A DNA stretch of 64,000 bases from NCBI RefSeq assembly GCF_030219325.1, contig NZ_CP126625.1, positions 248,001 through 312,000 on the forward strand, read 5' to 3'. This DNA is from Geothrix sp. GTDB taxonomy: Bacteria; Acidobacteriota; Holophagae; Holophagales; Holophagaceae. Shown piece by piece: positions 20,096 to 38,280 of the stretch. The notes below the pieces were generated by a model. The model saw only the letters and a list, made by a program, of their open reading frames with translations, was not told the DNA's origin and searched no databases. How positions within the stretch are numbered: position 1 is the stretch's first letter; each line of letters starts with the position of its first letter. A program made the translations under genes and the position numbers.

Positions 20096-21517
20096 ATGCC
20101 CCTCCTCTCCGATCTGATCCAGCGCGCGGCCGACCGGCTCTTCATGCCCTGGGTGCTGCTCGTCCTCATGGGCGGCGGCCTCTACCTGACCCTGCGCCTG
20201 CGCGTGGTGCAGGTGCGGCGCTTCCGCGAGGCCCTGCGGGTCATGCTGACAGCGCGGCCCCGGGGCGCGGACGGCCCGCTGACGCCCTTCCAGGCCTTCA
20301 TGACGGCCCTGGGGGCCTCCATCGGCACCGGCAACATCGCGGGCGTAGCCACGGCCATCATCTCCGGTGGCCCCGGCGCGCTGTTCTGGATCTGGTGCTA
20401 CGGCTTCTTCGCCACGGCCATCAAGTTCTGCGAGGCGGTGCTGGGCCTGCGCTTCCGCGTGGCGCGCGGCGACCAGGTGCAGAGCGGGCCCATGTACTAC
20501 CTGCGTGACGGCCTGAAGTCCCCGGCCCTGGCCTGGCTCTACGCCGCCGCAGCCTGCCTGGGGGCCCTGACCACCACGCCCTTCTCCCAGCCCAACAGCA
20601 TCGGCGTGGCCCTGAGCCATGTGCTGCCCACCGGCGCGGTGGTGCTGCCCTGGCTGGGCGCCGTGTCGCGGACGTCGCTCTATGTGGGCCTGGCCGTGGG
20701 CGTGCTGACCTGGGCGGTCATCATCGGCGGCATCAAGGTCATCGGCCGCGCGGCGGAGAAGCTGGCGCCCCTCAAGGTGGGCCTCTACCTGGCCGGGGGC
20801 CTGATCGTGCTCGTGACGTACGCCGCGGCCCTTCCCTCGGTGCTGGCCCTGGTCTTCCGCGAGGCCTTCTCCCTGCATGCCGCCGGCGGCACGGCCGCGG
20901 GCCTGGGCGTGATGATGGCCATGCGCTACGGCGTGGCGCGGGGTGTGTACGCCAACGAGGCGGGCTACGGCACCGCGGCGGTGGCCTACGGCACCGCGCA
21001 GAGCGATCGGCCCGAACAGCAGGGCCTGCACGCGGTGATGGAGACCTTCATCGTGTCCTGCGTGACCTCCTCCATCAGCGCCCTGACCATCCTCGTGAGC
21101 GGCGTGGCGCAGCAGTCCATCGCGGTGATCCGCGCCGGGGGCGAGGGCCTCACCAGCACGGCGGCGGTGGCCGGCGCCTTCAACACGGCGATGCCCACGG
21201 TGGGTGGCTGGATCGTGGCCTTCTGCGCCTTCCTCTTCGGCTACACCACCCTCATCGGCTGGGCCTTCTACGGCGAGCAGGCCCTCGAGTACCTGGTCGG
21301 CCCCCGGGCCACGAGGGTGTACCGCTGGATCTACTGCCTGCTCATCCCCTTCGGCGCCATCGCCAAGCCCACCGCCGTGTGGGCCTGGGGTGACATGATG
21401 AACGCGCTGCAGGTGTTCCCCAACATGATCGGCCTCCTCGGCCTGGCCGGCCTCGCGGCGAAGTACGCGACGCGGCGGGGTGGCGCCGAGTCCAGCGCCG
21501 GATTGGAGGCGCCGTGA
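20096..21517 (+). CDS. AGCS-family sodium:alanine/glycine symporter
   Basis: 473 residues and about eleven membrane helices, typical of the AGCS family. The signature GASIGTGNIAGVATAI (about residues 79-94) forms the Na+ and substrate site, and NEAGYGTAAVAYG is the second conserved block (about 287-299). It imports small amino acids such as alanine or glycine with Na+. The ATG at 20096 follows TAGGATCTGTCC. The stop overlaps the GTG start of the Kir channel by 4 bp, so the two are coupled. Confidence 0.92.
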   Translation: MPLLSDLIQRAADRLFMPWVLLVLMGGGLYLTLRLRVVQVRRFREALRVMLTARPRGADGPLTPFQAFMTALGASIGTGNIAGVATAIISGGPGALFWIWCYGFFATAIKFCEAVLGLRFRVARGDQVQSGPMYYLRDGLKSPALAWLYAAAACLGALTTTPFSQPNSIGVALSHVLPTGAVVLPWLGAVSRTSLYVGLAVGVLTWAVIIGGIKVIGRAAEKLAPLKVGLYLAGGLIVLVTYAAALPSVLALVFREAFSLHAAGGTAAGLGVMMAMRYGVARGVYANEAGYGTAAVAYGTAQSDRPEQQGLHAVMETFIVSCVTSSISALTILVSGVAQQSIAVIRAGGEGLTSTAAVAGAFNTAMPTVGGWIVAFCAFLFGYTTLIGWAFYGEQALEYLVGPRATRVYRWIYCLLIPFGAIAKPTAVWAWGDMMNALQVFPNMIGLLGLAGLAAKYATRRGGAESSAGLEAP

Positions 21518-22446
21518 CGCCACTCCCCCGCTTCAACCGCAGCCTCCCCAACGACGACCTGGGCCTGGGCGTCCGCGTGGGCCCGGGGCGCAGCGTCAAC
21601 AAGGACGGCACCTTCAACGTGCGCCGCGCGGGCCTGCCCTTCTTCCGGGGCTACGAGCTGTACCACCGGCTCATCACCATGGGCGGCTTCCGCTTCCTGG
21701 CCCTGCTCTTCCTGGGGTTCCTCGTGGCCAATGCCCTGTTCGCGGCCGTCTACCTGGGCATCGGCATGGACCAGTTCATCCGGACCGGTGGCCACAGCCG
21801 CCTGGACCGGCTCATGGACGCCTTCTTCTTCAGCGCCCAGACCCTCACCACCGTGGGGTACGGGCACATCAGCCCCAACAGCCACCTGGTGAGCGCCGTG
21901 GCGGCCTTCGAATCCCTGCTGGGGCTCCTGAGCTTCGCCCTGGCCACGGGCCTGCTCTACGGCCGCTTCTCGCGGCCCCATGCCCAGATGCGGTTCAGCC
22001 AGCGGGCCGTGGTGGCGCCCTATCGAGGCGGCACTGCCTTCATGTTCCGGTTCGTGAACCGGCGCAGCAACCAGCTCATCGAGGTGGAGGCCACCGTGGT
22101 GCTCTCCTGCAACGATCCGGAGACCGGCACCCGCCGCTTCGTCACCCTCTCGCTGGAGCGCAGCAAGATCAACCTCTTCCCCACCAGCTGGACCGTGGTG
22201 CATCCCATCGACGAGTCCAGCCCCCTCTCCGGCCTGACGACCGAGGATCTGGAGCGGGCCCAGGCCGAGTTCATCGTCCTCATCAAGGCCTTCGACGACA
22301 CCTTCGCCCAGACCATCTACCAGCGCACTTCGTACATCGCCGGGGAGATCCTCTGGGGCGCGCGCTTCCAGCCCATGGCCACCCTCGCGGTGGATGGCGT
22401 GATGGAGATGGATGTGGAGAAGGTCGATGCGACGGAGGTCGTCTAG
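21514..22446 (+). CDS. KirBac-type inward-rectifier potassium channel
   Basis: 310 residues. A slide-helix region (about 40-55) precedes two membrane helices (about 58-82 and 125-150) that flank the pore helix and selectivity filter TTVGYG (113-117). The immunoglobulin-like cytoplasmic domain follows, starting RPHAQMRFSQRAVVAPY, as in KirBac. It forms a tetrameric K+ channel. The start is GTG at 21514, overlapping the AGCS stop. It is convergent with kdpE and marks the edge of the potassium island. Confidence 0.93.
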   Translation: MTPLPRFNRSLPNDDLGLGVRVGPGRSVNKDGTFNVRRAGLPFFRGYELYHRLITMGGFRFLALLFLGFLVANALFAAVYLGIGMDQFIRTGGHSRLDRLMDAFFFSAQTLTTVGYGHISPNSHLVSAVAAFESLLGLLSFALATGLLYGRFSRPHAQMRFSQRAVVAPYRGGTAFMFRFVNRRSNQLIEVEATVVLSCNDPETGTRRFVTLSLERSKINLFPTSWTVVHPIDESSPLSGLTTEDLERAQAEFIVLIKAFDDTFAQTIYQRTSYIAGEILWGARFQPMATLAVDGVMEMDVEKVDATEVV

Positions 22447-22464
22447 AGAGCAGGAAGCACCGGC

Positions 22465-23156
<692 letters not shown>

Positions 23157-23160
<4 letters not shown>

Positions 23161-25841
23161 GGGGCCTCCTCCGGCATTGCGGGCGGCGTCCCCAGGGGCA
23201 GAGTCACCAGGAACTGGGCGCCGCCCTGGGGGTGGTTCACGGCCTGGATGCGGCCCTGGTGGGCCGTCACGATGCCCTTGCAGATGGCGAGGCCCAGCCC
23301 GGCCCCGGGCCGGTTCGAGGCGGCCTGGCCCCGGGCCAGCTTCTCGAAGATCCGCTCCTCCTCCCCGGCGGGGATGCCCGGCCCCTGGTCGGCGATGGAG
23401 AGCGTGAGCGACTTTCCGGCGGCCCAGGCCTTGATGTCCACGGGGGATTCCGGCGGCGAGTATTTCAGGGCGTTGTCGAGGAGGTTCAGCAGCAGCTGCT
23501 CCATGAGCACACCATCCATGGCCACCAGGGGCAGGTCCTCGGGCAGGGCGACGCGCACGCGATGGGCTTCCAGGGCCAGCTCCCGGCGGTTAAGGGCGGC
23601 GCCCACCACCTCCTCCACGGGCATCCACTCGGTCTGCAGGTCCAGGGAACCTGCCTCCAGGCGCGTGATGTCCAGCAGGTTGCTGACCAGACGGTGGAGG
23701 CGCTGGGCCTCCTCCTGGGCGGACTGGAGCAGCTCCCGCCGGGCGGGCTCGGGAAGATCCGGCGTCTCCAGGGCTGTGCTGACGGCGCCGGTGATGACGC
23801 CCAGCGGCGTGCGCAGGTCGTGGGAGACCGAGCTGAGCAGGGCGTTGCGGAGCCGCTCCTCGTCCGCCCGGCGCTTGTCCTGAGCGCCCTGCTCGGCCAG
23901 GAGGGCCCGCTCCAGGGCCAGGGCCGTCTGAGTGGCGAAGGCTTCGAGCAGCTGGCGCTGGTCCGGCTCGGCCCAGCGGGGCGCGCCCTCGGGGAGCAGG
24001 CCCAGGACGCCGAGGGCCCCGGCCGCCCCCTTCAGGGGCAGGTAGGTGGCGCGCGCGCCCGGCAGGGTGAGGGTGCCGAGGCCGGCGGGTTCCGCATGGT
24101 CGAAGACCCACTGGGCCACGCCCAGCTCCTGGTCGTTGAGGGGGAAGGCCAGGGGATGGGCGGGCGCCTGCAGACGGCCATGCTCATCGGGTCGCAGCAT
24201 CACGCCCTGGCTCTGGAACTGGGTGGCCACGTTCTGGAGGGCGGAGGCCACCAGGGCCGCGGAGCCCGAGCTGCGGGCCAGCTCCTGCCCCAGGCGGTAG
24301 AGGGCGTGGGTGCGCTGCTCTCGACCGCGCGCCAGGCGGGCCTGGGCGCGGATCCGCTCCGTGAGGTTGCCGATGACCACGCCCATCAGCAGCATCACGG
24401 CAAAGGTGCCCACGTGCCGGAAGTCAGTGACCGCGAAGGTGTAGTACGGGGGCACGAAGAGGAAGTCGAGGGCCGCGACGCTGAGCACGGAGGCCAGCAG
24501 GGAGGGGCCGCGGCCGAAGCGCGTGGCCACGATGAGGATGCCCAGGAGGTAGACCATGACGATGTCCGCCAGCTCGGTGCGGCGGAAGATGAGGCTGGCC
24601 AGGACACTGGCCAGCACCACGGTCAGGGCGCTCAGCAGGTAGTTGCGCAGGGGGCTCGTGATGGTGCGCCGGATGAGGGGCGTGGCCGGTTCGCGGCCCG
24701 GCTCGCCGCTGATGACGTAGACGTCGATGGTGCCGCTGTCGCGGATGAGATCGTCCACCGTGGAGCCCATCACCAGCTCCATCCAGCGGGGCCGGGAGGG
24801 TTTCCCCACCACGATCTTGGTGATGTTGCGGTCCCGGGCGAAGGTGAGGATGTCCTCCACCAGGGCGCCGGCCCCTTCGATGACCGCCGTCTCGCCGCCC
24901 AGTTTCTCGGCCAGGCGCAGGTTGGCCTCCAGGCGGGTGCGGTCCTCGTCCGTGAAGCGGAGGTGCTGGCGGGACTCCACGTAGAGGGCCAGCCAGGGCG
25001 CTCCGAGCGCGCCCGCCATGCGGCGGGTGCCGCGGATGAGGCGCTCGGACAGCTCCCCCGGGCCCACGCACACGAGCAGGCGGTCGCCGGCCGCCCAGGT
25101 CTTGCGGATGCCCTCGGAGGCCATGTAGCGGCGCATCTGCGCGTCCACGCTCTCGGCCGTGTGCCGCAGGGCCAGCTCACGCAGGGCCAGCAGGTTGCCC
25201 TTGCGGAAGAAGTGATCCTGGGCGTGGCGGGCCTGGTCCGGCAGGTAGACCTTCCCCTCCTTCAGGCGGAGCAGCAGGTCGTCCGGCGGCAGATCCACCA
25301 GCTCCACCTCGTCGGCGCGCTCCAGCACGGTGTCGGGCACGTTCTCCCGGACGATCACGCCCGTGATCTGGGCCACCACGTCCTTGAGGCTTTCCAGGTG
25401 CTGCACGTTCAGGGTGGTGTAGACGTCGATGCCCGCGTCCAGCAGCTCCATCACGTCCTGCCAGCGCTTGGCGTGCCGGGACCCCATCACGTTCGAGTGG
25501 GCCAGCTCGTCCATGAGGATCAGCTCGGGCCGCCGCTGCAGGGCCGCGTCCAGGTCGAACTCCGGCAGGAACTGGCCCGCGTAGGCCAGCTCCCTGCGGG
25601 GCAGCACCTCAAGCCCCTCGAGCAGGGCCGCGGTCTCGCTGCGGCCGTGGGTCTCCACCACGCCCACGACCACGCCCACGCCCTCCTTCCGGCGCTCCTG
25701 CGCCTCCGAGAGCATGGCGAAGGTCTTGCCGACGCCGGGCGCCGCACCGAAGAAGACCTTCAGCTTGGCGCGCGTCTCGCGGGACTCCTGCTCCTGCACC
25801 TGGCGCAGGAGGGCATCGGGGTCCGGGCGTTCGAGCGGCAT
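23157..25841 (-). CDS. kdpD: KdpD sensor histidine kinase
   Basis: 894 residues, full length. The N-terminal KdpD domain has Walker A GAAPGVGKT (32-40) and a Walker-B-like ILMDELAHSN. A universal-stress-protein-like domain (about 250-370) follows, then four membrane helices (about 395-490), a GAF-like domain, HisKA with phospho-His near 673 (SSVSHDLRTPLG) and HATPase (DQGPGIP, GAGLGLAI). It senses K+ limitation or osmotic state and phosphorylates KdpE. It lies about 4 kb from kdpFABC, with the porin and remnants between; the usual order is kdpFABCDE. Confidence 0.96.
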
Positions 25842-25922
25842 GCAGTCAACCTATCCGGAATTCGGCCCATGTTGAACACGGAACGGCTTGGGTGTGCCGA
25901 TCAGGAGGGTTCTCGGAGGACC

Positions 25923-26645
25923 TCAACCTTGGATGGCCACAGTCATCGTGCTGTGGCGCTTCTGCCGGTCTCCCTGGTCGTAGAGGAATGCCTCGGAGGT
26001 CCGGGTGGCCACCACCAGCCGCTGCTCCCGGACCGTGTAGGTGGTCCTGATCAGGCTCGTGCCATGAATGCGGCCGTAGAGGCGGCTGTGCCGGCCGGTG
26101 TAGTCCAGGGAGCATTCCGTGACCAGGGGCACGCCGTCATCATCCATCCAGACCTTCAGGATGGATTCCGCCTGCGTAACGAGGCTCTGGTGGTGGGTGG
26201 GGATCCTGGTCGCGTTCCTGAAGATCAGGGTCCGGACCTCCTTCCCCTGGTACGACTCGCGGCCTTCTGACTTGAACCGGGCGGCGTCCAGAAGCCCGGA
26301 CATCTCGCTCGCCTGGTTGAGCAGACTGTCCAACCGGGCCGGGCCGAGGTCCTTCTGCACCTCTTCCATGAAAATCGAGGTGAGCGATGCAGGGCCTGTG
26401 GGAGAAGGGTTCCAGGTTACCTGCAGGTCGGAGCCGCCCTCGGCCAGTTGCAGCCGCAGCGAATGCTCCTGGACGGCAGGCGTGAAGAAGGTGGTGCCTT
26501 CTTGCCGGAGGTTGTAGGCGACCTCGGCCTTCACGGGGGCCCGACCGTGGAGCCGGTTCAGGGTGGTGCGGAGGTCGGCAGGGCCGTCGGCCCGGGCCAG
26601 GGTGGTGAGAACCAGCACGAACAAAAGCTTGAGGGAGTACCGCAT
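25923..26645 (-). CDS. Secreted protein of unknown function, likely in the K+ regulon
   Basis: 240 residues with a signal peptide (MRYSLKLLFVLVLTTLARA, about 1-19) and no membrane segment afterwards. The rest is a mixed alpha/beta periplasmic protein that I do not recognise. The alternating strands and length are loosely like LolA-fold proteins, but no diagnostic motif is seen. The ATG at 26645 follows GGAGCTGCACC. It is divergent from the porin gene, and a minus-strand pair of the 11-bp repeats lies about 110 bp upstream, linking it to the potassium genes. Confidence 0.6.
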   Translation of the reverse strand: MRYSLKLLFVLVLTTLARADGPADLRTTLNRLHGRAPVKAEVAYNLRQEGTTFFTPAVQEHSLRLQLAEGGSDLQVTWNPSPTGPASLTSIFMEEVQKDLGPARLDSLLNQASEMSGLLDAARFKSEGRESYQGKEVRTLIFRNATRIPTHHQSLVTQAESILKVWMDDDGVPLVTECSLDYTGRHSRLYGRIHGTSLIRTTYTVREQRLVVATRTSEAFLYDQGDRQKRHSTMTVAIQG

Positions 26646-26744
26646 GGTGCAGCTCCAGATGGGGTCAGAGATGGTGGCCGGAATACCTGGGGGAATGGGA
26701 CGACCAGAGGAGGCACACGGGACCTACCTCGGCGGATGTCAGTG

Positions 26745-26773
26745 TCGGCGAGCGGGTGTTAAAGCGGCGTTGG
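26745..26773 (-). promoter_or_regulatory. Putative KdpE-type site for the 25923-26645 gene
   Basis: Read on the minus strand: repeat CCAACGCCGCT (26773-26763) directly followed by repeat TTAACACCCGC (26762-26752), 11 bp each. A weak -10-like GACACT follows one base from the position seen at the other promoters. The downstream TGRCCATSCT block is not conserved here, so this site is less certain than the others. Confidence 0.45.
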
Positions 26774-26839
26774 GATGCCGGCTGCGCGCATTAAGAATTC
26801 GCAATGATCCGCAATGGTCCGCATGGTTCCACTGCTTTC

Positions 26840-26894
26840 TTAACGCCGCCCCACCCTCTATTAGCGCCGCCCTAACGCCCGACGTGGCCATCCT
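26840..26894 (+). promoter_or_regulatory. Putative KdpE-dependent promoter of the porin gene
   Basis: Repeats TTAGCGCCGCC (26861-26871) and CTAACGCCCGA (26872-26882) abut. An extra copy, TTAACGCCGCC, lies at 26840-26850, 21 bp upstream in phase. The block TGGCCATCCT (26885-26894) starts exactly 13 bp after the last repeat begins and contains CATCCT as a plausible -10. This spacing matches the kimA and kdp promoters. Start of transcription near 26901 would leave a leader of about 32 nt. Confidence 0.6.
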
Positions 26895-26932
26895 TTCTGG
26901 CTGGCGATCTGCGCCGGATCTTTGGAGCTGTG

Positions 26933-28306
26933 ATGAAATCTTCTCTTCTGCTACTCATGGTGGCCGGCATTCCGGCCATGGCGCAGGCCTCCGCCGAACT
27001 CACCGCGGTGCAGGTTCCCGCGGCGCCACCCGCCGCGGTGGTCAAGGTCGCCGAGCCCTTCACTTTCGCCGATTTCACCTGGCTGAACGGCAACCCCCGC
27101 ACCAAGGATGCCCCGCTGGATTCCAAGGTCTTCACGGGTGAGTTTCGGGCCGACGTGAACATGGTCTACGACTTCAACCATCCCAAGGACCACACCATCG
27201 TGGGTTCCTGCGAGACGGGCCGGACCAATGAGATCCAGGTGCAGCAGCTGGGTCTCGGCGGCGATTTCCATTGGGAGAACGTCCGCGGCCGTGTCATGAC
27301 CCAGTTCGGGATGTACTCGACCATGACCCCCCGGAATGATGCGAGCCCCTCCCGGGGCCAGTGGGAGTCGGACAAGGCCTACCGCTATGTGTCCGAGGCC
27401 TACGGCGGCTACCACTGGGACGTGCTGAACGGCATCAACCTCGACGCCGGCATCTTCATGTCCTACATCGGCCTGTTCAGCTACTACAACTTCGACAACT
27501 GGGCCTACCAGCCCTCTTACGTATCCGCCAACACTCCCTGGTTCTTCAACGGCCTGCGTCTCCAGGTGTTCCCCTCGGACAAGCTGAAGCTGGAGTTCTG
27601 GCTCACCAACGGATGGCAGTCCTACAACACCTTCAACAACACCCCCGGCATCGGTGCCTGCCTCAACTGGCGGCCCACCGGCGACCTCAACATCATCTCC
27701 AACAACTACGTCCTGGGCGCCGACACGCTGGGCAACCAGAAACGCACCCGCCGCCACACGGACAACAGCATCCAGTGGAAGTACTACGACAAGCCGGAGA
27801 GCTTCATCTCCAGGATGGCGACCAGCTTCACCTTCGACCTGGGCGATGAGCAGGGCGGGGGCGTGAGCCGCTCCGGCAACGCCGCCGAGCCCAAGCAGTA
27901 CTTCGCGGGGTGGATGCTCTACAACCGCTTCTGGTTCAAGGGCGACCGCCACGCCATCACCATTGGCGGCGGGGCCATCACGAACCCCGGCCGCTACCTC
28001 GTCCTCGTGCCCCCCGTCAACGGGGCCACCGCGACCTCGGGCACTCCCTACTTCACTGCGAACCCCGGCGATCCCTTCCACGCCTGGGACTACACGGTGA
28101 CCTACGACTACATGCCCAGCCAGTTCATCACCTTCCGCGGCGAATTCAACCGCCGGGGCGCCAGTGTCCCCTACTTCTCGGGCGAGAACGGCATCACCCC
28201 TCCCGGCGGCAACCAGGGGCCCCTGGGGTCGGCGGTGGCCGGGTGGGCCCCCGACCTCCGCAAGACCGAGAGCCGCATCAACCTGGCCCTGCTCGTGAAG
28301 CTCTAG
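26933..28306 (+). CDS. Outer-membrane beta-barrel porin in the potassium island
   Basis: 457 residues. A signal peptide (about 1-20) and a short Pro/Ala linker are followed by a large beta-barrel with repeated aromatic-girdle strands and a final strand ending NLALLVKL. Segments such as YHWDVLNGINLDAGIFMSYIG resemble the BBP2 (beta-barrel porin 2) family. ATG 26933 is preferred over GTG 26930 because GGAG lies at ideal spacing. The shared operator-like promoter and the position beside kdp suggest it admits K+ under limitation; that substrate is inference. Confidence 0.8.
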   Translation: MKSSLLLLMVAGIPAMAQASAELTAVQVPAAPPAAVVKVAEPFTFADFTWLNGNPRTKDAPLDSKVFTGEFRADVNMVYDFNHPKDHTIVGSCETGRTNEIQVQQLGLGGDFHWENVRGRVMTQFGMYSTMTPRNDASPSRGQWESDKAYRYVSEAYGGYHWDVLNGINLDAGIFMSYIGLFSYYNFDNWAYQPSYVSANTPWFFNGLRLQVFPSDKLKLEFWLTNGWQSYNTFNNTPGIGACLNWRPTGDLNIISNNYVLGADTLGNQKRTRRHTDNSIQWKYYDKPESFISRMATSFTFDLGDEQGGGVSRSGNAAEPKQYFAGWMLYNRFWFKGDRHAITIGGGAITNPGRYLVLVPPVNGATATSGTPYFTANPGDPFHAWDYTVTYDYMPSQFITFRGEFNRRGASVPYFSGENGITPPGGNQGPLGSAVAGWAPDLRKTESRINLALLVKL

Positions 28307-28320
28307 ATTCAGGACACGCG

Positions 28321-28614
28321 ATGCTCACTCTGGTCCTGACCCTGGCTGTCGTGGGCACGAGCCCATGCCCCTCCCCGAACGATCGGTGCCCCGTCACGGG
28401 GCTTCCCGTGACGAACCCCATGATCTACAAGACCGTGGAAGTGCGCGGCCACTCCTACTACGTCCATGACCGCAGGGCAGGGATCCTGCTCAGGGCTTGG
28501 CCGGAAGGCTACCTGGACACGGACGGCACCCCACGGAGCGCCCATCCGATCTCCACACCATGCATGCCGGGCACCCATGGTTCGCCCCAAGGGTGCCGCT
28601 CCCGAGTCCGCTGA
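28321..28614 (+). CDS. Small secreted YHS-like protein
   Basis: 97 residues. A short signal (about 1-14) precedes CPSPNDRCPVTGLPV, then VRGHSYYVHDRRAGILLRAWPEGYLDTDGTP. The layout 'CPVTG..V....(K)..(V)..G..YYV......(F/L)...P..YL' follows YHS domains, which often bind metal through Cys, but the second Cys pair of the canonical motif is absent. It starts 14 bp after the porin stop and is probably cotranscribed. The last 20 residues are not conserved-looking. The assignment is tentative. Confidence 0.5.
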   Translation: MLTLVLTLAVVGTSPCPSPNDRCPVTGLPVTNPMIYKTVEVRGHSYYVHDRRAGILLRAWPEGYLDTDGTPRSAHPISTPCMPGTHGSPQGCRSRVR

Positions 28615-28717
28615 CTCCTCGCCCAGTCCGACGTTCCGATGCCCTCCCTGCCTTGCGGGGCGGGCATCGTCGGCGGCCGGGGCCGCCATCCCGTTGGCCA
28701 TCCATTCCGGAGGCATC

Positions 28718-29062
28718 GTGAGGGACGCTCCACCTCGGATCCTGATCGTGGAAGACGAACCTCACCTCCGGTCCTTCCTGCGGGAGGCCCTGAAGGCCCA
28801 CGGCTTCTGCTGCGTGGAGGCGGCCACGGGAAGGGAGGGGCTGGACCTGGCGGTGCGGCATCGTCCCGACATCACCCTGCTGGACCTGGGGCTGCCGGAT
28901 ATCGATGGTCTGGACCTCCTCTCGCGCCTGCGCGAATGGAGTCGCATGCCCGTCATCGTCATCTCCGCCCGTCGCCGGGAGATCGACCGCGTGGCGGCCC
29001 TGGATGTCGGCGCCGATGACTATCTTGCGAAGCCCTACCCTCTCCGGGAGCTGCTCGCCCGC
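28718..29062 (+). pseudogene. Truncated second kdpE (receiver domain only)
   Basis: It starts at GTG 28718 after CCGGAGG. The receiver resembles kdpE in this window over its whole length: RILIVEDEPHLRSFLREAL, LLDLGLPDIDGLDLLSRLREWSR, PVIVISARRREIDRVAALDVGADDYLAKPYPLRELLAR. The acceptor Asp and the conserved Lys are kept. Similarity stops abruptly at LRELLAR (29062), and the DNA-binding half is absent. The frame stays open to 29416, but the rest is antisense to kdpC and the kdpA-like fragment. A receiver-only protein cannot be excluded. It looks like the product of a rearrangement in a duplicated kdp locus. Confidence 0.75.
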
Positions 29063-29105
29063 CCAGTGCCGTCCGCCAGGAAGCCCTGGGTGACGAGGCC
29101 CGGCA

Positions 29106-29231
29106 TCAGCAGGGCGAAGAGGCCCACGGTCCGCCCGAGAATACCCGCTCCAGGTAGCGCCCCGCGGGAACCGTCAACCCGAAAACGAGAAGGAGGAAGA
29201 GGGCGTACTGGGCCAAGTCCCCGGGGGGCAT
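29106..29231 (-). pseudogene. kdpA-like 5' fragment immediately after kdpC
   Basis: A 41-codon frame opens with ATG 3 nt after the kdpC stop. It encodes DLAQYALFLLLVFGLTVP then AGRYLERVFSGG, which matches the N-terminal membrane helix and the 'PLGRYM.RVF.GE' segment of KdpA, and then stops. The intact kdpA is at 31976-33673. The fragment abuts the truncated kdpE on the opposite strand. Because it is short, the homology call is moderate; an unrelated small membrane protein is possible. Confidence 0.45.
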
Positions 29232-29234
29232 GGG

Positions 29235-29828
29235 CTACTTCGACGACAATGCTTCGAGGGCGAGGTTCAGCTTCAGCACGTTCACGCGGGCATCGCCGAG
29301 CACGCCCCATTGGGGGCCTTGGGTGTGGGCGGCCACCAGGTCGCGGACCTTGGCCTCGTCCAGGCCCCGGGCCTTGGCCACGCGATGCACCTGGTAGGCG
29401 GCAGCGGCGGGGCTGATGTGGGGATCCAGGCCGCTGGCGGACGTGGTGACGAGGTCCACGGGCACGGGGCCGGTGGTGTCAGGATCCGCCGCGCGCAGGG
29501 CGGCGATGCGCTCCTCCACGGCCTTCTTCAGGTCCGGGTTGCTGGGAGCCAGGTTGGATCCGCCGCTGTTGGCGCCGTTGTAGGGCAGGGGCTTGCCGTT
29601 GGCGTCCACGGTGGCGGAGGGGCGGCTCCAGAAATCCTTGGGGGCCGTGAAGGACTGTCCGATGAGCTCGGAGCCGATCACCTTGCCATCCGCCTTGATA
29701 AGGCTGCCCGCCGCCTGCTTGCGGAAGATGGCCTTGGAGAGCCCCGTGATGACCAGGGGATAGGCGAGGCCCGTGATGACGCTGAGGGCGATGAAGGAGA
29801 CGAGGGCGGGGCGGAGTTGCAGGTTCAT
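29235..29828 (-). CDS. kdpC: Potassium-transporting ATPase subunit KdpC
   Basis: 197 residues. One N-terminal membrane helix (about 8-30, [22 protein letters not shown]) precedes the periplasmic domain, with the family motifs [29 protein letters not shown] and [10 protein letters not shown]. KdpC stabilises the KdpFABC complex and assists K+ delivery. It starts 9 bp after the kdpB stop, as the last intact gene of the operon. Confidence 0.97.
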
Positions 29829-29837
29829 GGCGTGTCC

Positions 29838-31961
29838 TTACGCGGCGAAGTGAAGGGCGACCAGCAGCCAGTCGATGAGCTTGATGCCGATGAAGGGCAC
29901 CACCAGGCCGCCCGCGCCGTAGATGAGCAGGTTCCGCTGCAGCAGCTGGGCGGCGCCCACGGGACGGTATTTCACGCCGCGCAGGGCCAGGGGGATGAGC
30001 ACCACGATGATCAGTGCGTTGAAGATCACCGCCGACAGGATGGCGCTCTCGGGGCTGTGCAGGCCCATGATGTTGAGCGCTCCCAGAGCCGGATAGGTGG
30101 CCACGAAGGCCGCCGGCAGGATGGCGAAGTACTTGGCCACGTCGTTGGCGATGCTGAAGGTGGTGAGGGAGCCGCGGGTCATGAGCATCTGCTTGCCGAT
30201 CTCCACGATCTCGATGAGCTTGGTGGGATTGGAGTCCAGGTCCACCATGTTCCCGGCCTCCTTGGCGGCCTGGGTGCCGCTGTTCATGGCCACGGCCACG
30301 TCGGCCTGGGCCAGGGCGGGCGCATCGTTGGTGCCGTCACCGGTCATGGCCACGAGGCGGCCCCCGGCCTGGTATTCGCGGATGAGTTTCAGCTTGGCTT
30401 CGGGTGTGGCCTGGGCCAGGAAGTCGTCCACGCCCGCTTCCGCGGCGATGGCGGCGGCGGTGAGGGGATTGTCACCGGTGATCATCACGGTCTTGATGCC
30501 CATGCCGCGCAGCTCGGTGAAGCGCTCCTTGATGCCACCCTTCACGATGTCCTTGAGCTGGATGACGCCCAGGGCGTGAGGCCCTTCGGCGACCACCAGA
30601 GGTGTGCCTCCCGCCATGGAGATCTGATCCACCGTGCGGCGCAGGTCATCGGGGAACTTCCCGCCCTGGGCCTGGACGTAGTCCTCGATGGCGGACGCCG
30701 CACCCTTGCGGATCTGGCGGTCGCCGAGGTTCACGCCGCTCATGCGGGTCTGGGCGGTAAAGGGGACGAAGTGGGCGTCCAGGGCCTGGAGATCCCGCTC
30801 GCGGAGGCCGTACTGCTCCTTGGCCAGCACCACGATGCTGCGGCCCTCGGGTGTTTCATCCGAGAGCGAGGAGAGCTGCGCGGCATCGGCCAGGGCCCTG
30901 ATGTCCACGCCCTCGGCGGGAACGAAGGCCACAGCCTGGCGGTTGCCCAGGGTGATGGTGCCGGTCTTGTCCAGCAGCAGCACGTCCACGTCGCCGGCGG
31001 CTTCCACGGCACGGCCCGAGGTGGCGATGACGTTGGCCTGGATCATGCGATCCATGCCGGCGATGCCGATGGCCGACAGCAGGCCGCCGATGGTGGTGGG
31101 GATGAGGCAGACCAGCAGGGAGACCAGCACCGTGAGGGTCACGGGGCTGCCCTGGCCTGCGGCCTTCACGCTGAAGATGGAAAAGGGCAGCAGCGTGGCC
31201 ACGGCCAGCAGGAAGATGATGGTGAGGCCCGCCAGGAGGATGTCCAGGGCGATCTCGTTGGGCGTCTTCTGGCGCTTGGCGCCCTCCACCATGGCGATCA
31301 TGCGGTCCAGGAAGCTTTCGCCGGGGTTGGCCGAGATGCGGATGACCAGCCAGTCCGAGAGCACCAGGGTGCCGCCGGTGACGGCGGAGCGGTCGCCGCC
31401 GCTTTCCCGGATGACGGGGGCGCTCTCGCCGGTGATGGCGCTTTCGTTCACGGAAGCCACGCCTTCGACCACCTCGCCGTCACCGGGGATGGTCTCGCCG
31501 GCTTCCACCAGCACGAGATCATTGATGCGCAGATCGGGCGCATCGATGGTGTCAAAGGCGCCCTGGCGGTCCGTCCCCTTGAGGCGCTTGGCCTTCACGT
31601 CGCGCTTGGATTTGCGCAGGGAATCGGCCTGGGCCTTGCCCCGGCCCTCGGCCATGGCTTCGGCGAAGTTGGCGAAGAGCAGGGTGAACCAGAGCCAGAG
31701 GGAGATGGCGAGGATGAAGCCGGGCCGCCCACCGCCACGCCCCGAAAGGGCCTGCACCCAGAGCCCCGTGGTGAAGGCGCTGCAGATCCACACCGTGAAC
31801 ATCACCGGGTTCCGCAGCTGGTGCAGGGGATTCAGTTTTCGAAGGGAATCGATCACTGCGCGGCGCACGATGCTGGGTTCGAAGAGGGGGCGGGCTTGAC
31901 GAGAGCTCCCAACCCGCGTCTGCGCGAGGTGGGGAATGTCCTGCCGTGAATGGGAAACCAT
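29838..31961 (-). CDS. kdpB: Potassium-transporting P-type ATPase KdpB
   Basis: 707 residues. It is the catalytic subunit that hydrolyses ATP to drive K+ uptake. The phosphorylated Asp is D331 in [10 protein letters not shown], the actuator loop TGES is at 177-180, and the nucleotide and hinge motifs ([16 protein letters not shown]) are present. The ATG at 31961 is chosen because GGAG lies 6 nt upstream (31968-31971); an in-frame TTG at 31979 would overlap the ribosome site. It lies 14 nt after kdpA. Confidence 0.97.
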
Positions 31962-31975
31962 GGTCATCTCCAGAA

Positions 31976-33673
31976 TCAACGAAGGGCCAGCTGTTCAGCG
32001 ATGGGCCCCAGGGCCAGGGCGGGCAGGTAGGTGAGCGCGCCCACCAGCAGGACCACGCCCACCAGCACCGCCACGAAGAGGGGCGTGTGCGTGGGCAGGG
32101 TGCCCAGGCCCTCCGGCGTGTATTTCTTGCGACCCAGGGAACCGGCGATGGCGAGCACGGGGAAGATGACGCCGAAGCGGCCCACCACCATGGCGACGGC
32201 GAGCCCGTAGTTGTAGAAGGGGATGTTGCCGTTGAGGCCGCCGAAGGCGCTGCCATTGTTCTGGGCGCAGCTGCTGAAGGCGTAGAGAACCTGCGTGAAG
32301 CCGTGGGGCCCGGGGTTGGAGATGGAGGCCGTGGCCGCCGTCGAGAGCACGGCCGTAGCCGTGCCGATGAGGATGGCGGCGGAAGGCAGGAGGATGGCGA
32401 TGGAGGCCATCTTCATCTCGAAGGCCTCGATCTTCTTCCCCAGGTACTCCGGCGTGCGGCCCACCATGAGGCCACCGATGAAGACGCCCACCAGGGCGAA
32501 GAGCAGCATGCCGTAGAGGCCCGAGCCGACGCCGCCGAAGACCACTTCGCCCAGCTGGATCAACCAGAGGGGGACCAGGCCGCCCAGTGGGGTGAAGGAG
32601 TCGTGCATGCCATTGACGGCGCCGCAGGAGGCGGACGTGGTGATGGTGGCGAAGAGGCTGGTGGCCCCGGTGCCGAAGCGGACCTCCTTGCCCTCCATGT
32701 TGCCGCCGCCCTGCTGGAGGGTGGCGACCTGGTCCACGGGGAGGGGCTTGAGTCCAGGGTTGCCCTTGGCCTCGGCCCAGGTGGTGACCGAGAGCGCCAT
32801 CACGAAGATGACGGTCATGGCGGCCAACACGGCCCAGCCCTGGCGGCGGTCCTTCACCATCTTGCCGAAGGTGAGGCAGAGGGCCGCGGGAATGGCGAAG
32901 ATGGCCAGCATGTGGATGAGGTTGCTGAGGGCGTTCGGGCTTTCGAAGGGGTGGGCGGAGTTGGCGTTGAAGAAGCCGCCGCCGTTGGTGCCCAGCATCT
33001 TGATGGCCACCTGGGAGGCCACGGGGCCCATGGCGATGACCTGCCCCGAGGCGGTGTGCACATAGGCGGAGAGGTTCTGGATGGCGCCCTGGGAGACCAG
33101 CAGGAGGGCGATGACGGCGCTGAGGGGCAGCAGCACGTAGAGGGTGCTGCGGGTCAGATCCGCCCATGCGTTGCCGATGCCGTTCGACGTGCGGCGCACC
33201 AGTCCCCGGATGAGGGCCACCAGCACGGCCATGGCCGTGGCGGCGGAGAGGAAGTTCTGCACCGTGAGGCCCAGCATCTGGGTGAGATAGCTCATGGTGC
33301 TTTCACCACCGTAGTTCTGCCAGTTGGTGTTGGTGACGAAACTGATGGCGGTGTTGAAGGACAGGTCCGTGGGCAGCTTGCCCATGGCTTCGGGGTTCAG
33401 GGGCAGGGCCCCCTGGGCTTTCTGCAGCACGAAGACCGCCACGAACCCCAGCAGGTTGAAAAGGGCGATGGCCCAGGCATAGGCCTTCCAGCCCATGTCC
33501 TCCCCGCCGGAGATGCCCATGAGCCGGTAGATGCCCCGCTCGAGGGGCCCGAGCACCGGATGGAGGAAGGTGCGCTCCCCTTCCATCACCTTGGCGATGA
33601 AGGGACCGAGCGGGACCGCGATCCCGATCAGGAGCACGAGGAAGAGGAGGTTCTGGATCCAGGCTGCGGTCAT
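31976..33673 (-). CDS. kdpA: Potassium-transporting ATPase subunit KdpA
   Basis: 565 residues, the K+-selecting channel-like subunit with ten membrane helices. The four filter-region signatures are visible: [43 protein letters not shown] and NNGSAFGGL. The start ATG at 33673 overlaps the kdpF stop by 4 bp (ATGA), indicating coupled translation. Confidence 0.97.
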
Positions 33674-33762
33674 TGGAACTTCTCCGGTTTCAGCAGCGCG
33701 AAGGTGAGGTAGCCCAGCAGGCCCAGGGCCAGCAGGGACGCGACGAGGAGGGTGGGGCTCAT
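33670..33762 (-). CDS. kdpF: KdpF small subunit
   Basis: 30 residues: [17 protein letters not shown] then [14 protein letters not shown] single membrane helix ends in the 'L..PE.F' tail typical of KdpF, which stabilises the KdpABC complex. Its stop overlaps the kdpA start and its start overlaps the stop of the upstream 64-residue membrane protein, so three genes are chained by 4-bp overlaps. It is easily missed because of its length. Confidence 0.92.
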
Positions 33763-33953
33763 GAGAGGCCTCCGGGATGGGTCGTGAACTGGGCCATCAG
33801 CCAGACGAAGAGGGGGAAGAACATCAGGACGAGCATCCACACCGCATTTTTCCGTCCGGCCCCGCTCTCGGCGCGCAGGTCCCTGGCGGTACGCAGGCCG
33901 AGCCAGGCGACCAGGGTGGCGAGGGGGAGGAACCAGGGCAGGACGAGATGCAC
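33759..33953 (-). CDS. 64-residue membrane protein coupled to kdpF
   Basis: Two membrane helices (about 4-18, [16 protein letters not shown], and 40-56, [18 protein letters not shown]) are joined by a basic loop containing [13 protein letters not shown]. The start is GTG 33953 with CAGGAG upstream; an upstream ATG at 34034 would fall before the predicted transcription start. The stop overlaps the kdpF start by 4 bp. I know no characterised Kdp component of this type. Its position as first gene of the predicted kdp transcript suggests an accessory or regulatory subunit, which is inference. Confidence 0.7.
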
Positions 33954-34034
33954 AGGGGCTCCTGTGGTGTATGCGGACTGGGGCGGCCAGCGGCGCCGGC
34001 TCGGCTTCGCCTTCCAGGGATCAGGCGACCCCAC

Positions 34035-34100
34035 AGCATGGTCATGGGGGGCGTTAAGGCGGCGTTAGGAGTCCGGGCCGAGCCGTTAGGTTCTCGTTGG
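34035..34100 (-). promoter_or_regulatory. Putative KdpE-dependent promoter of the kdp operon
   Basis: On the minus strand the proximal pair is CTAACGCCGCC (34068-34058) and TTAACGCCCCC (34057-34047). A distal pair, CCAACGAGAAC (34100-34090) and CTAACGGCTCG (34089-34079), is phased 21 bp upstream. TGACCATGCT (34044-34035) begins 13 bp after the last repeat starts, with CATGCT as a plausible -10. Transcription starting near 34027 would give a leader of about 75 nt before the 64-residue gene. Confidence 0.62.
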
Positions 34101-34122
34101 GCCGGGGCCCAGGCCTGATTTC

Positions 34123-34156
34123 CTAACGTTTTCTTAACACCCTTCCTGGCCATCCT
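34123..34156 (+). promoter_or_regulatory. Putative KdpE-dependent promoter of kimA
   Basis: Repeats CTAACGTTTTC (34123-34133) and TTAACACCCTT (34134-34144) abut, followed by TGGCCATCCT (34147-34156), again 13 bp from the start of the second repeat. The TGGCCATCCT block is identical to that at the porin promoter. It is divergent from the kdp promoter in the same intergenic region (33954-34256), which otherwise holds no gene. Confidence 0.6.
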
Positions 34157-34256
34157 GAGGACCGGCTGGCCTTGGGGAGCGGGCGCGCCGGGTCGACCCT
34201 GTCGGCACGCTGTGCGCCCCGTCCAGATGACCTCACCAGACCAGGGAACCGCAGCC

Positions 34257-36149
34257 ATGCCCAACTACCGAGCGCTCCTCCTGGGGCGGCGGCTCACCAC
34301 CGAGGAGAGCCACGAGACCAGGATCAGCAATCCCATCGCCCTGGCGGTGTTCAGCTCGGACGCGCTGTCTTCCGTGGCCTACGGCACCCAGGAGATCATG
34401 GCCCCGCTCACGGCGGCCATCGCCATCTATGGCGCGGGGGTGCTCGGCTGGTCCTGGTGGGTGGCCCTCGGCATCGTGGGCCTGCTGCTCATCCTCAACG
34501 TGAGCTACCGGCAGACCATCCATGCCTACCCCAGCGGCGGCGGAGCCTACCTGGTGGCCAAGGACAACCTGGGGGAAGTGGCCGCGCAAACGGCCGGCGC
34601 ATCCCTCCTGATCGACTACATCCTGACCGTCGCCGTGTCCGTATCGGCCGGCGTGTCGGCCATCGTCTCGGCGTTCCCGGGCCTGGAGGCCCACCGGGTC
34701 TTCCTGGCCGAGGGCATCATCGCCTTCATCGCGCTGATGAACCTGCGGGGCGTGAAGGAGAGTGGCCTGGTCTTCTCCCTGCCCACCTACGGCTTCGTGA
34801 TCTGCATCGTGGGCCTGCTGCTCAAGGGCTTCTGGAATGTGGCCACCGGCCATGAGGTGGTCCTCGCCCCCCGCGCCGCAGCCCACCTGGAGGGCACCTC
34901 CAAGCTGGCGGCCCTGTGGCTCTTCGCCCGGGCCTACAGCGCCGGCTGTACGGCCCTCACGGGGGTGGAGGCCATCAGCAACGGCGTCACCGCCTTCAAG
35001 GACCCGGTGTCGCGCAATGCGGCGAAGACCATGACCTGGATGGTGGTGATCCTGGGCTCCATGTTCCTGGGCATCACCTACCTGACCAACCACTACGGCC
35101 TGACCTACCATCCGGACGCCCCGGAGACCCTGCTGTCCCAGCTGACCCGGGTGATCCTGGGCGGGGCGGAACACGGGTTCCCGAAGCTGGTCTACCTCAC
35201 CACCACCGGTTTCACCATGGCCATCCTGGCCCTGGCGGCCAACACCGCCTATGCGGACTTCCCCCGACTGGCCGCGCTCCACGCCCGGGACGGTTTCCTG
35301 CCCCGGCAGTTCACCAGCCAGGGAGACCGCCTGGTCTTCTCCAATGGGATCTTCATCCTGTCGCTGGCGGCGGGGGTCCTGGTCCTGCTCTTCGGCGCCA
35401 AGGAGGACCACCTGCTGCCGCTCTATGCCGTGGGCGTGTTCCTGGGCTTCACCATCAGCCAGACCGGCATGGTGGTGCGCTGGTTCAGGCTGAAGGGCAA
35501 GGCCTGGCGGCTGAAGGCGGTGATCAATGGTCTGGGCGCCGTGACCACGCTGGTCGTCATGCTGGTGATCGCCGTGACCCGGTTCGCCCACGGGGCCTGG
35601 ATCGTCATCGTCCTGGTGCCCGTGATGGTGACGACCTTCTTCAACATCCACCGGCACTACATCCGCGTGAAGTCCATCCTGGCGGCGAGCCGCGTGGACT
35701 TCATGGGGCCCCGCCGCAACCGCGTGGTGGTGCTGGTCTCCGGCATCCACGCCGGCGTGGTGCAGGCCCTGAACTACGCCAAGGTCATCGCCGAGCATGG
35801 CGAGGTGGAGGCGCTGACCGTCGACTTCCCCGATGAGCATGGCCGGGACAGCGCGGCGCTGGAGAAGCTGAGGTCAGACTGGCCCAGGTACTGTGAAGGG
35901 ATTCCGCTCCGGCCGATCCGGAGCCCCTACCGCAAGGTCGTCGAGCCCATCGTGGACGAACTCGAGCGAATGCGGCGGGTGGAGCCGGAGTACACCATCA
36001 CCGTGATCCTGCCCGAGTTCATCACGGGGCACTGGTGGTCGAACCTGCTGCACAACCAGACCGCCTGGCGCATCAAGGGCACCCTGCTCCTCATGCCCAA
36101 GATCATCGTGATCTCGATCCCCTACCACGTGGATCCCACGCTCGAGTAG
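34257..36149 (+). CDS. kimA: KimA-type potassium importer (APC-superfamily)
   Basis: 630 residues: twelve predicted membrane helices (about 25-450) and a cytoplasmic C-terminal domain. Blocks shared with B. subtilis KimA (YdaO) as I recall it include FSSDALSSVAYGT, SYRQTIHAYPSGGGAYLV, SLLIDYILTVAVSVSAG, CTALTGVEAISNGV, and near the end FITGHWWSNLLHNQTAW. KimA is a high-affinity K+/H+ symporter, and the location opposite kdpFABC with a matching promoter strongly supports K+ import. ATG 34257 is preferred; GTG 34212 is in frame but adds a non-conserved leader. An amino-acid permease is the alternative. Confidence 0.85.
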   Translation: MPNYRALLLGRRLTTEESHETRISNPIALAVFSSDALSSVAYGTQEIMAPLTAAIAIYGAGVLGWSWWVALGIVGLLLILNVSYRQTIHAYPSGGGAYLVAKDNLGEVAAQTAGASLLIDYILTVAVSVSAGVSAIVSAFPGLEAHRVFLAEGIIAFIALMNLRGVKESGLVFSLPTYGFVICIVGLLLKGFWNVATGHEVVLAPRAAAHLEGTSKLAALWLFARAYSAGCTALTGVEAISNGVTAFKDPVSRNAAKTMTWMVVILGSMFLGITYLTNHYGLTYHPDAPETLLSQLTRVILGGAEHGFPKLVYLTTTGFTMAILALAANTAYADFPRLAALHARDGFLPRQFTSQGDRLVFSNGIFILSLAAGVLVLLFGAKEDHLLPLYAVGVFLGFTISQTGMVVRWFRLKGKAWRLKAVINGLGAVTTLVVMLVIAVTRFAHGAWIVIVLVPVMVTTFFNIHRHYIRVKSILAASRVDFMGPRRNRVVVLVSGIHAGVVQALNYAKVIAEHGEVEALTVDFPDEHGRDSAALEKLRSDWPRYCEGIPLRPIRSPYRKVVEPIVDELERMRRVEPEYTITVILPEFITGHWWSNLLHNQTAWRIKGTLLLMPKIIVISIPYHVDPTLE

Positions 36150-36170
36150 GCCCGCCGAAGGCCTGCCTTC

Positions 36171-36629
36171 CTAGGGTTCGATGGTCCTGCCAGTCTCGGC
36201 CTTCAGCAGGATCTCCCGCACCATCAGGGTCGCGTCCTCCTGGCTGAGCTGGTCTTTCCAGGCGGGCATGGAGTAGCCGAAGAGGATGCCCTTGCGGATG
36301 GTCCGGATCATGGTCCGGATCTCCCGCTCGGAAGCCGGGCCGCTCAGCGTCCTGAACTCATGGGCGGCCTTGGTGAAGTCCAGCCCACCAAGTCGCCGTC
36401 CGTCGGGGCCCTTCGCGGAACCGTCCAGCCCGTGGCAGCGGGTGCAGTTCTGCTGGAAGAAGGCCTTCAGCTCGGGGATCGTCCTGGCCCTCGCTTCCGC
36501 CACCTGGGCCGGGGCGCTGAGCGCGGCGAGCAGCACCCAACCGGGCAGGAGGAGGCGGGAGAGGGCCCGCTGGATGGAGCCGAGGCACGGGAGAACTGCG
36601 GCATTTCCGATCCGGAGCATGCGAGGCAC
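36171..36629 (-). CDS. Periplasmic single-haem cytochrome c
   Basis: 152 residues from GTG 36629, which AAGGAGG precedes. A hydrophobic signal (about 25-45) leads to the haem motif CTRCHG. A GYSMPAW-type Met lies about 60 residues later and is the probable sixth ligand. The pattern 'GILFGYSMPAWKDQLSQED' is typical of small class-I cytochromes. A paralogue with the same layout lies at 46254-46664. The 15-bp element GAACCGGATCTGGTG is 74 bp upstream. It probably shuttles electrons in the periplasm. Confidence 0.9.
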   Translation of the reverse strand: MPRMLRIGNAAVLPCLGSIQRALSRLLLPGWVLLAALSAPAQVAEARARTIPELKAFFQQNCTRCHGLDGSAKGPDGRRLGGLDFTKAAHEFRTLSGPASEREIRTMIRTIRKGILFGYSMPAWKDQLSQEDATLMVREILLKAETGRTIEP

Positions 36630-36702
36630 TTGCCCTCCTTGGGATGCATCGAGCGCCGGGGAGGACGCCCGCTCCGTCCATGGTCAACGGCGCCGACCCT
36701 GC

Positions 36703-36717
36703 CACCAGATCCGGTTC
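36703..36717 (-). promoter_or_regulatory. GAACCGGATCTGGTG element, copy 1
   Basis: On the minus strand GAACCGGATCTGGTG points at the cytochrome gene (start 36629), 74 bp upstream. It is preceded by ATCTGG, giving a possible short hairpin ATCT..GGAT around the GGGAACC loop. The 15 bases are identical to copies at 39622 and 43738. Confidence 0.55.
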
Positions 36718-36801
36718 CCAGATGGCGTACAGTCCGGTTCTGGAGTGCCTGAGGGCACCCCGGCGGGGCCGCGTGAGGCCAGGCAGGATGCACCGCGGGG
36801 A

Positions 36802-38280
36802 TCAAGCCCGCCTGGCGCAGGCTTCCTTCAGGGCCAGGGCCATCCGTGAGCAGGCCTCGTTCTGCTCGTCCAGGTCATGGGCCGCGAAGCCGAGGCTGAT
36901 GAAGGGCAGGCTCTGGCGGTGGAGGTCGTAGAGTCCACCGGGGTAGAAGACCACGCCGTGGGCCAGGCAGCGCTCCGTCCAGGCCTCGAGGGGCACGCCC
37001 TCGGCCACGCGGACCCAGAGGGAGAGGCCCTCGCGGGGGTTCCGCACCGAGATGGCCGGGTGGAGGTGGAGGAGCAGCCGATCCACCATGGTCTCCCGGC
37101 GCTCGTCCGTGAGCTTGCGGAGGCGGCGGAGGTGCCGCAGGATCTCGCCGTCGCGCAGGGTCTCCTCGATGGTGGCCTCCTGCACCAGGTTGCCGGGCCA
37201 GTCCACCAGCTGGCGCTGCTGGGCCAGGGCCTTGATGAGGCTGGCCTCGCCCGCGAGGAAGCCCACCTGGAGGCCGGGCGCGAGGATCTGCTCGAAGCTG
37301 CTGAAGTAGAGCACGCGGCCGTGGAGGTCCTCGCTGGCCAGCGGCAGGCTGGGGTTCTTCTCCCGGTGGAAGCCCAGGCCAGGGTCTCCTTCGAGGATGC
37401 GGAAGCCATGCGCCCGGGACAGCTCCAGCAGCCGCTGGCGCCGCGCGGGATCCAGGGTCACCTGGGTGGGGTGCTGGGGGCTGGCCGAGAGGTAGAGCAG
37501 GCGGATGGGCTCCTGGATCAGCAGGGCCTCCAGGGCCTCCACGTTCAGGCCCCGGGCATCCACGGGCACGGCGAACAACCGGGCGCCGGCCGAGCGGAAG
37601 GCCTCGGCCACCCGGAACATGCCGGGGTTCTCCATGGCCACGGCATCGCCCGGCGCGAACAGCACCCGGGATACCAGGTTGAGGGTGCTCATCAGGCCGC
37701 GGGTGAGCAGCAGGTTGCCCGCTTCGACGGAGAGTCCCCGCATGTCTCGGAGCATCTTGCCGAGGGAGTTCCGCAGATCCAGCAGGCCCCTGGGGTCCCA
37801 GCCCGGCTGGAGCAGCCGTTCGGGATGCAGCTTCAGGATCCGGCCGTAGGCCCGGTGGATGGCCTCGGTGGGGGCGAGCCTCAGGTCCGTCGTGTCGGGG
37901 ATGAGCTGGAAGGATTCGAGAGCCGGGGCCCCCGGCTGGAAGAAGGGCTCGCTCCGGGGCGTGGCGCGCTTCCAGGAGGCCGAGTCCTGGGCGGAAATGC
38001 CCGCCGGGACTTCGAGCACGAAGGGCAGCTTCCGGGCCACGAAGGTGCCGCGGTCCGGGGCCACCTCGATCCAGCCCTCCGCCTCCAGCTCCTTGTAGGC
38101 GGCCAGGGTCGTGTTCCGGTTGACGCCCAGCAGCTCCGCCAGGGCCCGGGTCCCGGGGAGGGCATCCCCGGGCTTGAAGCGCCCGTGTCGGATGCCCTCC
38201 TCGAGGGCCTTCACCAGCTGGAGGTACAGGGGTTCGGGATTGGATCGGTCGAGCGCGATGGCAAGATCCCAGTTACCCAA
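36802..38280 (-). CDS. MocR-like GntR regulator with degenerate aminotransferase domain
   Basis: 492 residues from TTG 38280, with GGAG 7 nt upstream. The N-terminal GntR winged helix (about 10-80) reads LYLQLVKALEEGIRHGRF, LPGTRALAELLGVNRNTTLAAYKELEAEGW. The C-terminal fold-type-I aminotransferase domain is about 125-485. In MocR proteins the PLP-binding Lys sits in 'FSKTLAPGLRLGY'. Here the segment is SSFEQILAPGLQVGF, with Gln at the Lys position and Gln for the phosphate-binding Arg, so PLP attachment appears lost. It may sense another ligand. MocR regulators usually act on a divergent gene, but both neighbours here run in the same direction. Confidence 0.85.
   Translation of the reverse strand: MGNWDLAIALDRSNPEPLYLQLVKALEEGIRHGRFKPGDALPGTRALAELLGVNRNTTLAAYKELEAEGWIEVAPDRGTFVARKLPFVLEVPAGISAQDSASWKRATPRSEPFFQPGAPALESFQLIPDTTDLRLAPTEAIHRAYGRILKLHPERLLQPGWDPRGLLDLRNSLGKMLRDMRGLSVEAGNLLLTRGLMSTLNLVSRVLFAPGDAVAMENPGMFRVAEAFRSAGARLFAVPVDARGLNVEALEALLIQEPIRLLYLSASPQHPTQVTLDPARRQRLLELSRAHGFRILEGDPGLGFHREKNPSLPLASEDLHGRVLYFSSFEQILAPGLQVGFLAGEASLIKALAQQRQLVDWPGNLVQEATIEETLRDGEILRHLRRLRKLTDERRETMVDRLLLHLHPAISVRNPREGLSLWVRVAEGVPLEAWTERCLAHGVVFYPGGLYDLHRQSLPFISLGFAAHDLDEQNEACSRMALALKEACARRA

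Follow-up and report, generated by a model that had tools for sequence, protein, structure and literature searches.

In the KdpFABC complex, potassium passes the filter of the KdpA subunit and then an inter-subunit tunnel that leads into the ATPase subunit KdpB, and the passage of the same source that deals with KdpC describes the role of that subunit as elusive (PMC8385062). Judging by titles and listings, we found no description in the open-access literature of an extra kdpA that stands behind kdpC without a kdpB of its own. The locus discussed here resembles kdpFABC operons with split or duplicated parts, as a canonical kdpFABC and kdpDE are both present in the window, i.e., a stretch of 64,000 nucleotides from a Geothrix genome that forms a single contig of 3,733,873 bases. 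Between them lies a scar of two broken kdp genes. We consider it probable that an ancestor carried two additional genes, kdpA2 and kdpE2, behind kdpFABC, that both are now dead, and that the window holds the decayed kdpFABC-kdpA2-kdpE2 tail. The ancestral kdpA2 (the name KdpA2 was coined in this analysis) would have supplied a second, divergent pore subunit for potassium, with kdpE2 encoding a regulator of the KdpE type dedicated to it.

Read from left to right, the region begins with an intact kdpE (22465-23160, minus strand; Response_reg and Trans_reg_C in Pfam) and kdpD (23157-25841, minus strand), which matches kdpD at 79-93% in 19 of 20 related loci and at 67% in a locus of another genus (L054). 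These are followed by a gene for a 240-residue protein (hyp240, minus strand), a gene for a beta-barrel porin of the BBP2 type, OmpL-like (26930-28306, plus strand; Pfam PF07642, E 5e-44), and a small ORF of 97 residues (28321-28614, plus strand). Next come the receiver piece on the plus strand and the KdpA-like piece on the minus strand, which abut tail to tail and have intact counterparts in relatives. The remaining genes all lie on the minus strand: kdpC of the canonical operon (29235-29828, stop codon at 29235-29237; Pfam KdpC, E 2e-75; 88-89% to G038, G020, G029, and G043), kdpB (29838-31979; 84-94% to its counterparts in the loci compared from the genus and family, with one partial match at 98%), the canonical kdpA (31976-33673; Pfam KdpA, E 3e-237; TIGR00680, 765 bits), and a 30-residue frame from the ORF list (33670-33762), which we take to be kdpF-like from its resemblance to typical KdpF.

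The KdpA-like ORF (29106-29231, minus strand) encodes 41 residues and starts 3 nt after the kdpC stop codon. An initial annotation of this DNA had described it as a kdpA-like N-terminal fragment in exactly this position, to which we can add a second block. Block 1 (29133-29231, minus strand) comprises the start codon and KdpA2 residues 1-33, with 26 of 29 residues identical to residues 5-33 of the intact KdpA2 in G012, another genome of the genus (E 4e-11; none of 500 shuffles reached the score). Block 2 (29056-29136, minus strand) contains KdpA2 residues 127-153 in a shifted frame, agreeing with the G012 protein at 17 of 27 residues and at 82% over 49 nt of DNA; this was equaled by none of 500 shuffles for the G012 protein and by 2 of 500 for that of bog_363. 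Because the two blocks are colinear but in different frames, they point to an internal deletion: some 93 codons would have dropped out of the interior of kdpA2, with a shift of frame, and everything after codon ~153 would be gone as well. Block 2 can possibly also be read as residues 80-86 (GLFGLLM) plus 138-151; the single deletion takes fewer steps.

Neither Pfam (no matches) nor the KdpA family model (TIGR00680/PF03814) recognizes the 41-residue frame, so its assignment to the KdpA family is based on its relatives. An origin unrelated to KdpA is ruled out by the 26/29 match to the KdpA2 encoded intact in G012. The nearest relative by identity is KdpA2 (90% over 29 residues, versus 42% over 26 residues for the KdpA of its own genome), and these values, together with the separate KdpA2 clade described below, also rule out a copy of the neighboring kdpA. 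Among 47 genomes of the genus, its own included, the first 34 residues match (E<=0.001) in the own genome and G012 alone, the latter being 87% identical. Block 2 keeps the KdpA2-diagnostic residue A147; the other diagnostic residues fall in the deleted parts, as the remnant ends at about residue 153 and block 2 begins at 127, past the first pore loop. A search of the own genome for another intact KdpA2 or KdpE2 found none.

In a tree of 39 KdpA sequences, whose row labels were assigned by best-scoring query and agreed with the tree, the 13 KdpA2 group together with full support (100/100), and the canonical KdpA proteins from the same genomes or families fall outside this clade. Seven positions set the groups apart, being characteristic in 13/13 KdpA2 versus 24-26 of the 26 KdpA. 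Intact kdpA2 was present in one (G012) of the 46 other genus genomes searched, and a second one occurs in the Holophagaceae genome bog_363 (77%). Across 77 genomes of the family, identity to the KdpA2 query exceeded 70% in these two only and was at most 50% elsewhere. Among 396 genomes of the phylum, G331 (55%) and G324 (53%) stand out at E<=1e-140, and 399 genomes of the class of G324 gave 11 matches at E<=1e-190, the query genome G331 included. The intact KdpA2 of G012, bog_363, and G552 pass TIGR00680 with 563.9, 559.3, and 593.3 bits (cut-off 387.7), so NCBIfam would name KdpA2 simply KdpA. Compared with the KdpA of KdpFABC (TIGR00680, PF03814; chains 6hra_A and 5mrw_A), KdpA2 covers nearly the whole family model, aligns over nearly the full length of a KdpA sequence that we attribute to Escherichia coli, and keeps the pore-loop motifs WQ, GTNGGG, G(A/S), and NNG. 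Three pore-loop positions set it apart, with T instead of N before WQ, S instead of T in loop 3, and Q instead of S in the NNGS loop, and its gene is often not adjacent to kdpB.

The intact gene pair is found in G012, where the KdpA paralogue (576 residues, in an open frame of 577) overlaps an intact KdpE paralogue (231 residues) by GTGA; a DUF2254 gene follows the pair on the other strand. This KdpE2 resembles the KdpE response regulator in having a receiver and a DNA-binding domain, and its best NCBIfam model is KdpE, although it scores 256.6 bits, below the model cut-off of 325; the window copy, on the other hand, is a receiver alone. The contig with the pair measures 5,237 bases and carries neither kdpB nor kdpC, and the record PMJK01000038.1 encodes an identical KdpA2. 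Contigs C7 and C141 of G012 also hold kdpD-kdpE and kdpA-kdpB, each pair being interrupted in the matches by gaps or frameshifts, and kdpC was not found in this genome, which is 86% complete.

The receiver remnant in the window (28718-29053, plus strand) spans 112 codons. It begins with a GTG codon at 28718, 4 nt behind a GGAGG ribosome-binding box (28709-28713, plus strand), and matches Pfam Response_reg (E 5e-29) over nearly the full domain. The winged-helix DNA-binding domain of KdpE is missing, Response_reg being the only domain found and homology ending at codon 112. That a kdpE-like receiver on the plus strand stops at LRELLAR had already been noted and is borne out: the frame leaves KdpE homology after this motif (29053) and stays open to 29416, antisense to kdpA2 and kdpC. 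Identity to the KdpE2 of G012 (74/112) and to the own KdpE (71/112) is so close that it does not decide between the two origins. Trees place the receiver among the KdpE of the genus (92/83 in one tree), on the longest branch of all KdpE rows (0.52-0.73), and the best topology of a second tree makes it the sister of KdpE2, with weak support (71/79). Seven non-majority residues are common to the receiver and KdpE2, and five of them occur in 0/26 KdpE rows, one of the five being the GTG start read as V. By the same counts, no KdpE row shares more than four non-majority residues or more than two exclusive ones. From these comparisons we infer that the receiver derives from kdpE2. The 41 differences between the receiver and the own KdpE avoid the KdpE-invariant columns (8 found versus 17.9 expected, P 7e-5), implying that most of them arose while the receiver protein was still in use. 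It would thus have been constrained during most of its history, and it could still be translated, as the ribosome-binding box is kept. Upstream of the remnant, a strong hairpin is found at 28637-28669, and the segment 28615-28725 folds at a z of -2.67, matched by 2 of 200 shuffles.

The two remnants meet at 29054-29062, where comparison with kdpE, kdpE2, and kdpA2 DNA reveals no more than a few shared bases. According to our preferred explanation, kdpE2 would have lost its DNA-binding half, flipped, and become attached to what was left of kdpA2 through an illegitimate joint. An inversion-type deletion had been proposed initially, and part of this idea survives. The tail-to-tail orientation does require an inversion or a joined-in fragment, and an inversion seems the more plausible source of the joint; however, the kdpC-kdpA2 order is intact elsewhere in the phylum (L124, L167, L192, L193, and L194), so the KdpA piece does not owe its place after kdpC to a rearrangement and only the receiver is flipped. 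One simple inversion would leave the C-terminal part of kdpA2 before the receiver. On the plus strand upstream of the receiver, the search for this part returned nothing better than shuffles. On the minus strand, a single gapped match of 35 nt (score 31) to the G012 locus appeared, reached by 0/100 and 1/100 shuffles in two comparisons; a match this short, and on the wrong strand at that, we attribute to chance. With the kdpA2 C-terminus not found, either a further deletion occurred or the receiver is a fragment of other origin.

The latter option has its own scenario, in which only kdpA2 decayed in place while the receiver moved in together with the small ORF (28321-28614) and was joined to the stump by chance, with no local inversion. 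The family of this ORF (~85-97 residues; no Pfam or NCBIfam match for the window copy) is common in the genus, with matches in 34 of 60 genomes, which leaves room for a moved-in origin of the receiver. Its members usually sit elsewhere in the genome, often in neighboring pairs (e.g., C1:2590343-2590858 of the own genome), and the missing kdpA2 C-terminus just before the receiver and a joint almost without shared sequence are likewise as expected. We nonetheless find this scenario rather unlikely, since the receiver has its closest shared residues with KdpE2, whose gene accompanies kdpA2 in G012, and a distant origin would turn this into coincidence. An improbable reading is that the receiver was kept after the break as a working receiver-only protein, competing for KdpD phosphate and thereby tuning the Kdp response. 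Its ribosome-binding box, the match over nearly the full domain, and the concentration of its changes outside invariant columns agree with this, whereas the run of its frame into the antisense of kdpA2 and kdpC and its branch, the longest of the KdpE rows, speak against it. Nor is a receiver-only gene normal at this place: none was seen in the loci of 20 relatives. Such a gene, or an assignment of the 41-residue frame to another family, would have refuted the initial annotation, and neither came about. Most likely, neither the receiver nor the kdpA2 piece works now.

The initial annotation favored yet another history, namely a duplication of the whole kdp locus, after which an inversion-type deletion left pieces of kdpE and kdpA and split kdpDE from kdpFABC. 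Pieces of both types are indeed present and tail to tail, but the far higher identity of the KdpA piece to KdpA2 than to the own KdpA, and its place in the separate KdpA2 clade, contradict a duplication of the present operon, and we regard this history as very improbable. The separation of kdpDE does not help it either. Of the 20 related loci, 11 have kdpD immediately next to kdpC, and in the nine others the two are kept apart by kup (five loci, in G020 together with hyp240 and a porin gene), a porin gene (one locus, in G018), or unassigned sequence (three loci); a kdpA2 stump after kdpC occurs in none of the nine and in none of the 20. The scar is therefore rejected as what splits kdpDE from kdpFABC; in the window, the separation consists of hyp240 and the porin gene, with the scar merely lying between porin gene and kdpC. 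What stands of a second kdp locus is that both pieces are broken kdp genes whose intact counterparts overlap in G012, albeit a different gene pair than claimed. The preferred history of a decayed kdpFABC-kdpA2-kdpE2 tail also has evidence against it: the low support for the receiver with KdpE2, the absence of the kdpA2 C-terminus upstream, and a receiver that is constrained and keeps its ribosome-binding box. In addition, its full gene order occurs in no single genome and is pieced together, the pair of G012 not standing behind kdpC on its 5.2-kb contig.

Relatives show kdpA2 in several arrangements. It directly follows kdpC, with no kdpB found in the locus, in bog_363 (L124, spacing 4 nt), G644 (L192), G552 (L193), and G642 (L194); these loci reach only ~6-8 kb to each side, and within them nothing matched kdpB of the KdpFABC pump at E<=1e-3 (L124) or 1e-4 (L192-L194). 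G324 carries the order kdpA-kdpB-kdpC-kdpA2-DUF2254 (L167). In L190 and L191, kdpA2 is apart from but near the canonical kdp genes, porin genes lying both in the interval and further out, and in L186, L187, L188, L189, and L166 it has no other Kdp subunits in the locus, a kdpDE-like pair lying ~5 kb away in L189. In G331, which belongs to another family of the phylum, an intact kdpA2 stands alone (L166) and the canonical operon (L195) has a stump behind kdpC, with KdpA2 residues 1-24 followed by 396-435 in another frame; the stump in the window is thus not unique. No other kdpA2 stumps were found in 49 downstream regions of the genus and family, taken from 29 genomes (20 of them fetched twice). 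In the KdpC tree, the kdpC beside kdpA2 in bog_363 (L124, 5406-5996) has a long branch among the canonical KdpC of the window genus (94/87), and the L192-L194 copies make up a separate group (96/91), so that there is no single KdpC2 family. The kdpC of L124 is unlike the other kdpC of bog_363, a metagenome-assembled genome with 8% contamination.

As a pair of pseudogenes the scar is ordinary, but it leads to a little-noticed second KdpA family, named simply KdpA in databases. KdpA2 might replace KdpA in the canonical KdpB complex or form, with KdpC, a pore without ATPase, as suggested by its four conserved pore-loop motifs, the usual lack of a kdpB of its own, and the presence of kdpC in several loci. 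More tentatively still, KdpA2 and KdpC could be a module for potassium transport, derived from Kdp but operating with no KdpB of its own, that was repeatedly gained and lost in Acidobacteriota, the window being one loss. It might be a regulated pore for passive flow, or it might provide a swap-in pore through which the KdpB pump acquires another affinity or selectivity. This second family, with its kdpC-kdpA2 pairs lacking a neighboring kdpB in four loci of related soil bacteria, is the wider find worth following. Where a KdpA is encoded alongside KdpC and no KdpB, the question arises of whether KdpA can conduct or gate potassium without its pump, and the pair offers a natural system for probing the role of KdpC.

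Some minor observations concern the surroundings. Relatedness across 19409-38280 of the window is mosaic: agcS, the kch-like gene, kdpE, kdpD, and gntR are 92-97% similar to G013 (L050), yet kdpC and kdpA reach only 78% and 73% there and 89-93% to G038, G020, G029, and G043 (compared with L039-L042). Either the window or the G013 side probably had its kdpFABC replaced. Rfam returned nothing for the window and four loci except one tRNA, in L195. Within the own genome, C1:859412-862018 (L114) encodes a KdpE-like regulator and a short sensor kinase beside a putative ammonium transporter gene (names read from the sequence). Downstream of kdpA2, two families of the phylum have a gene for a DUF2254 membrane protein (72% identity between them; L111 4154-5230, minus strand, and L167 11286-12323, plus strand), on opposite strands relative to kdpA2. 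The BBP2 (OmpL-like) porin gene of the window (26930-28306) has counterparts that often neighbor kdp or kdpA2 (L040, L046, L056-L058, L147, L166, L167, L190, and L191), other families of the phylum included. Finally, pieces 74-83% similar to the non-coding segment 26740-26930 occur near kdp genes in L039, L040, L046, and L111, and also in L056.
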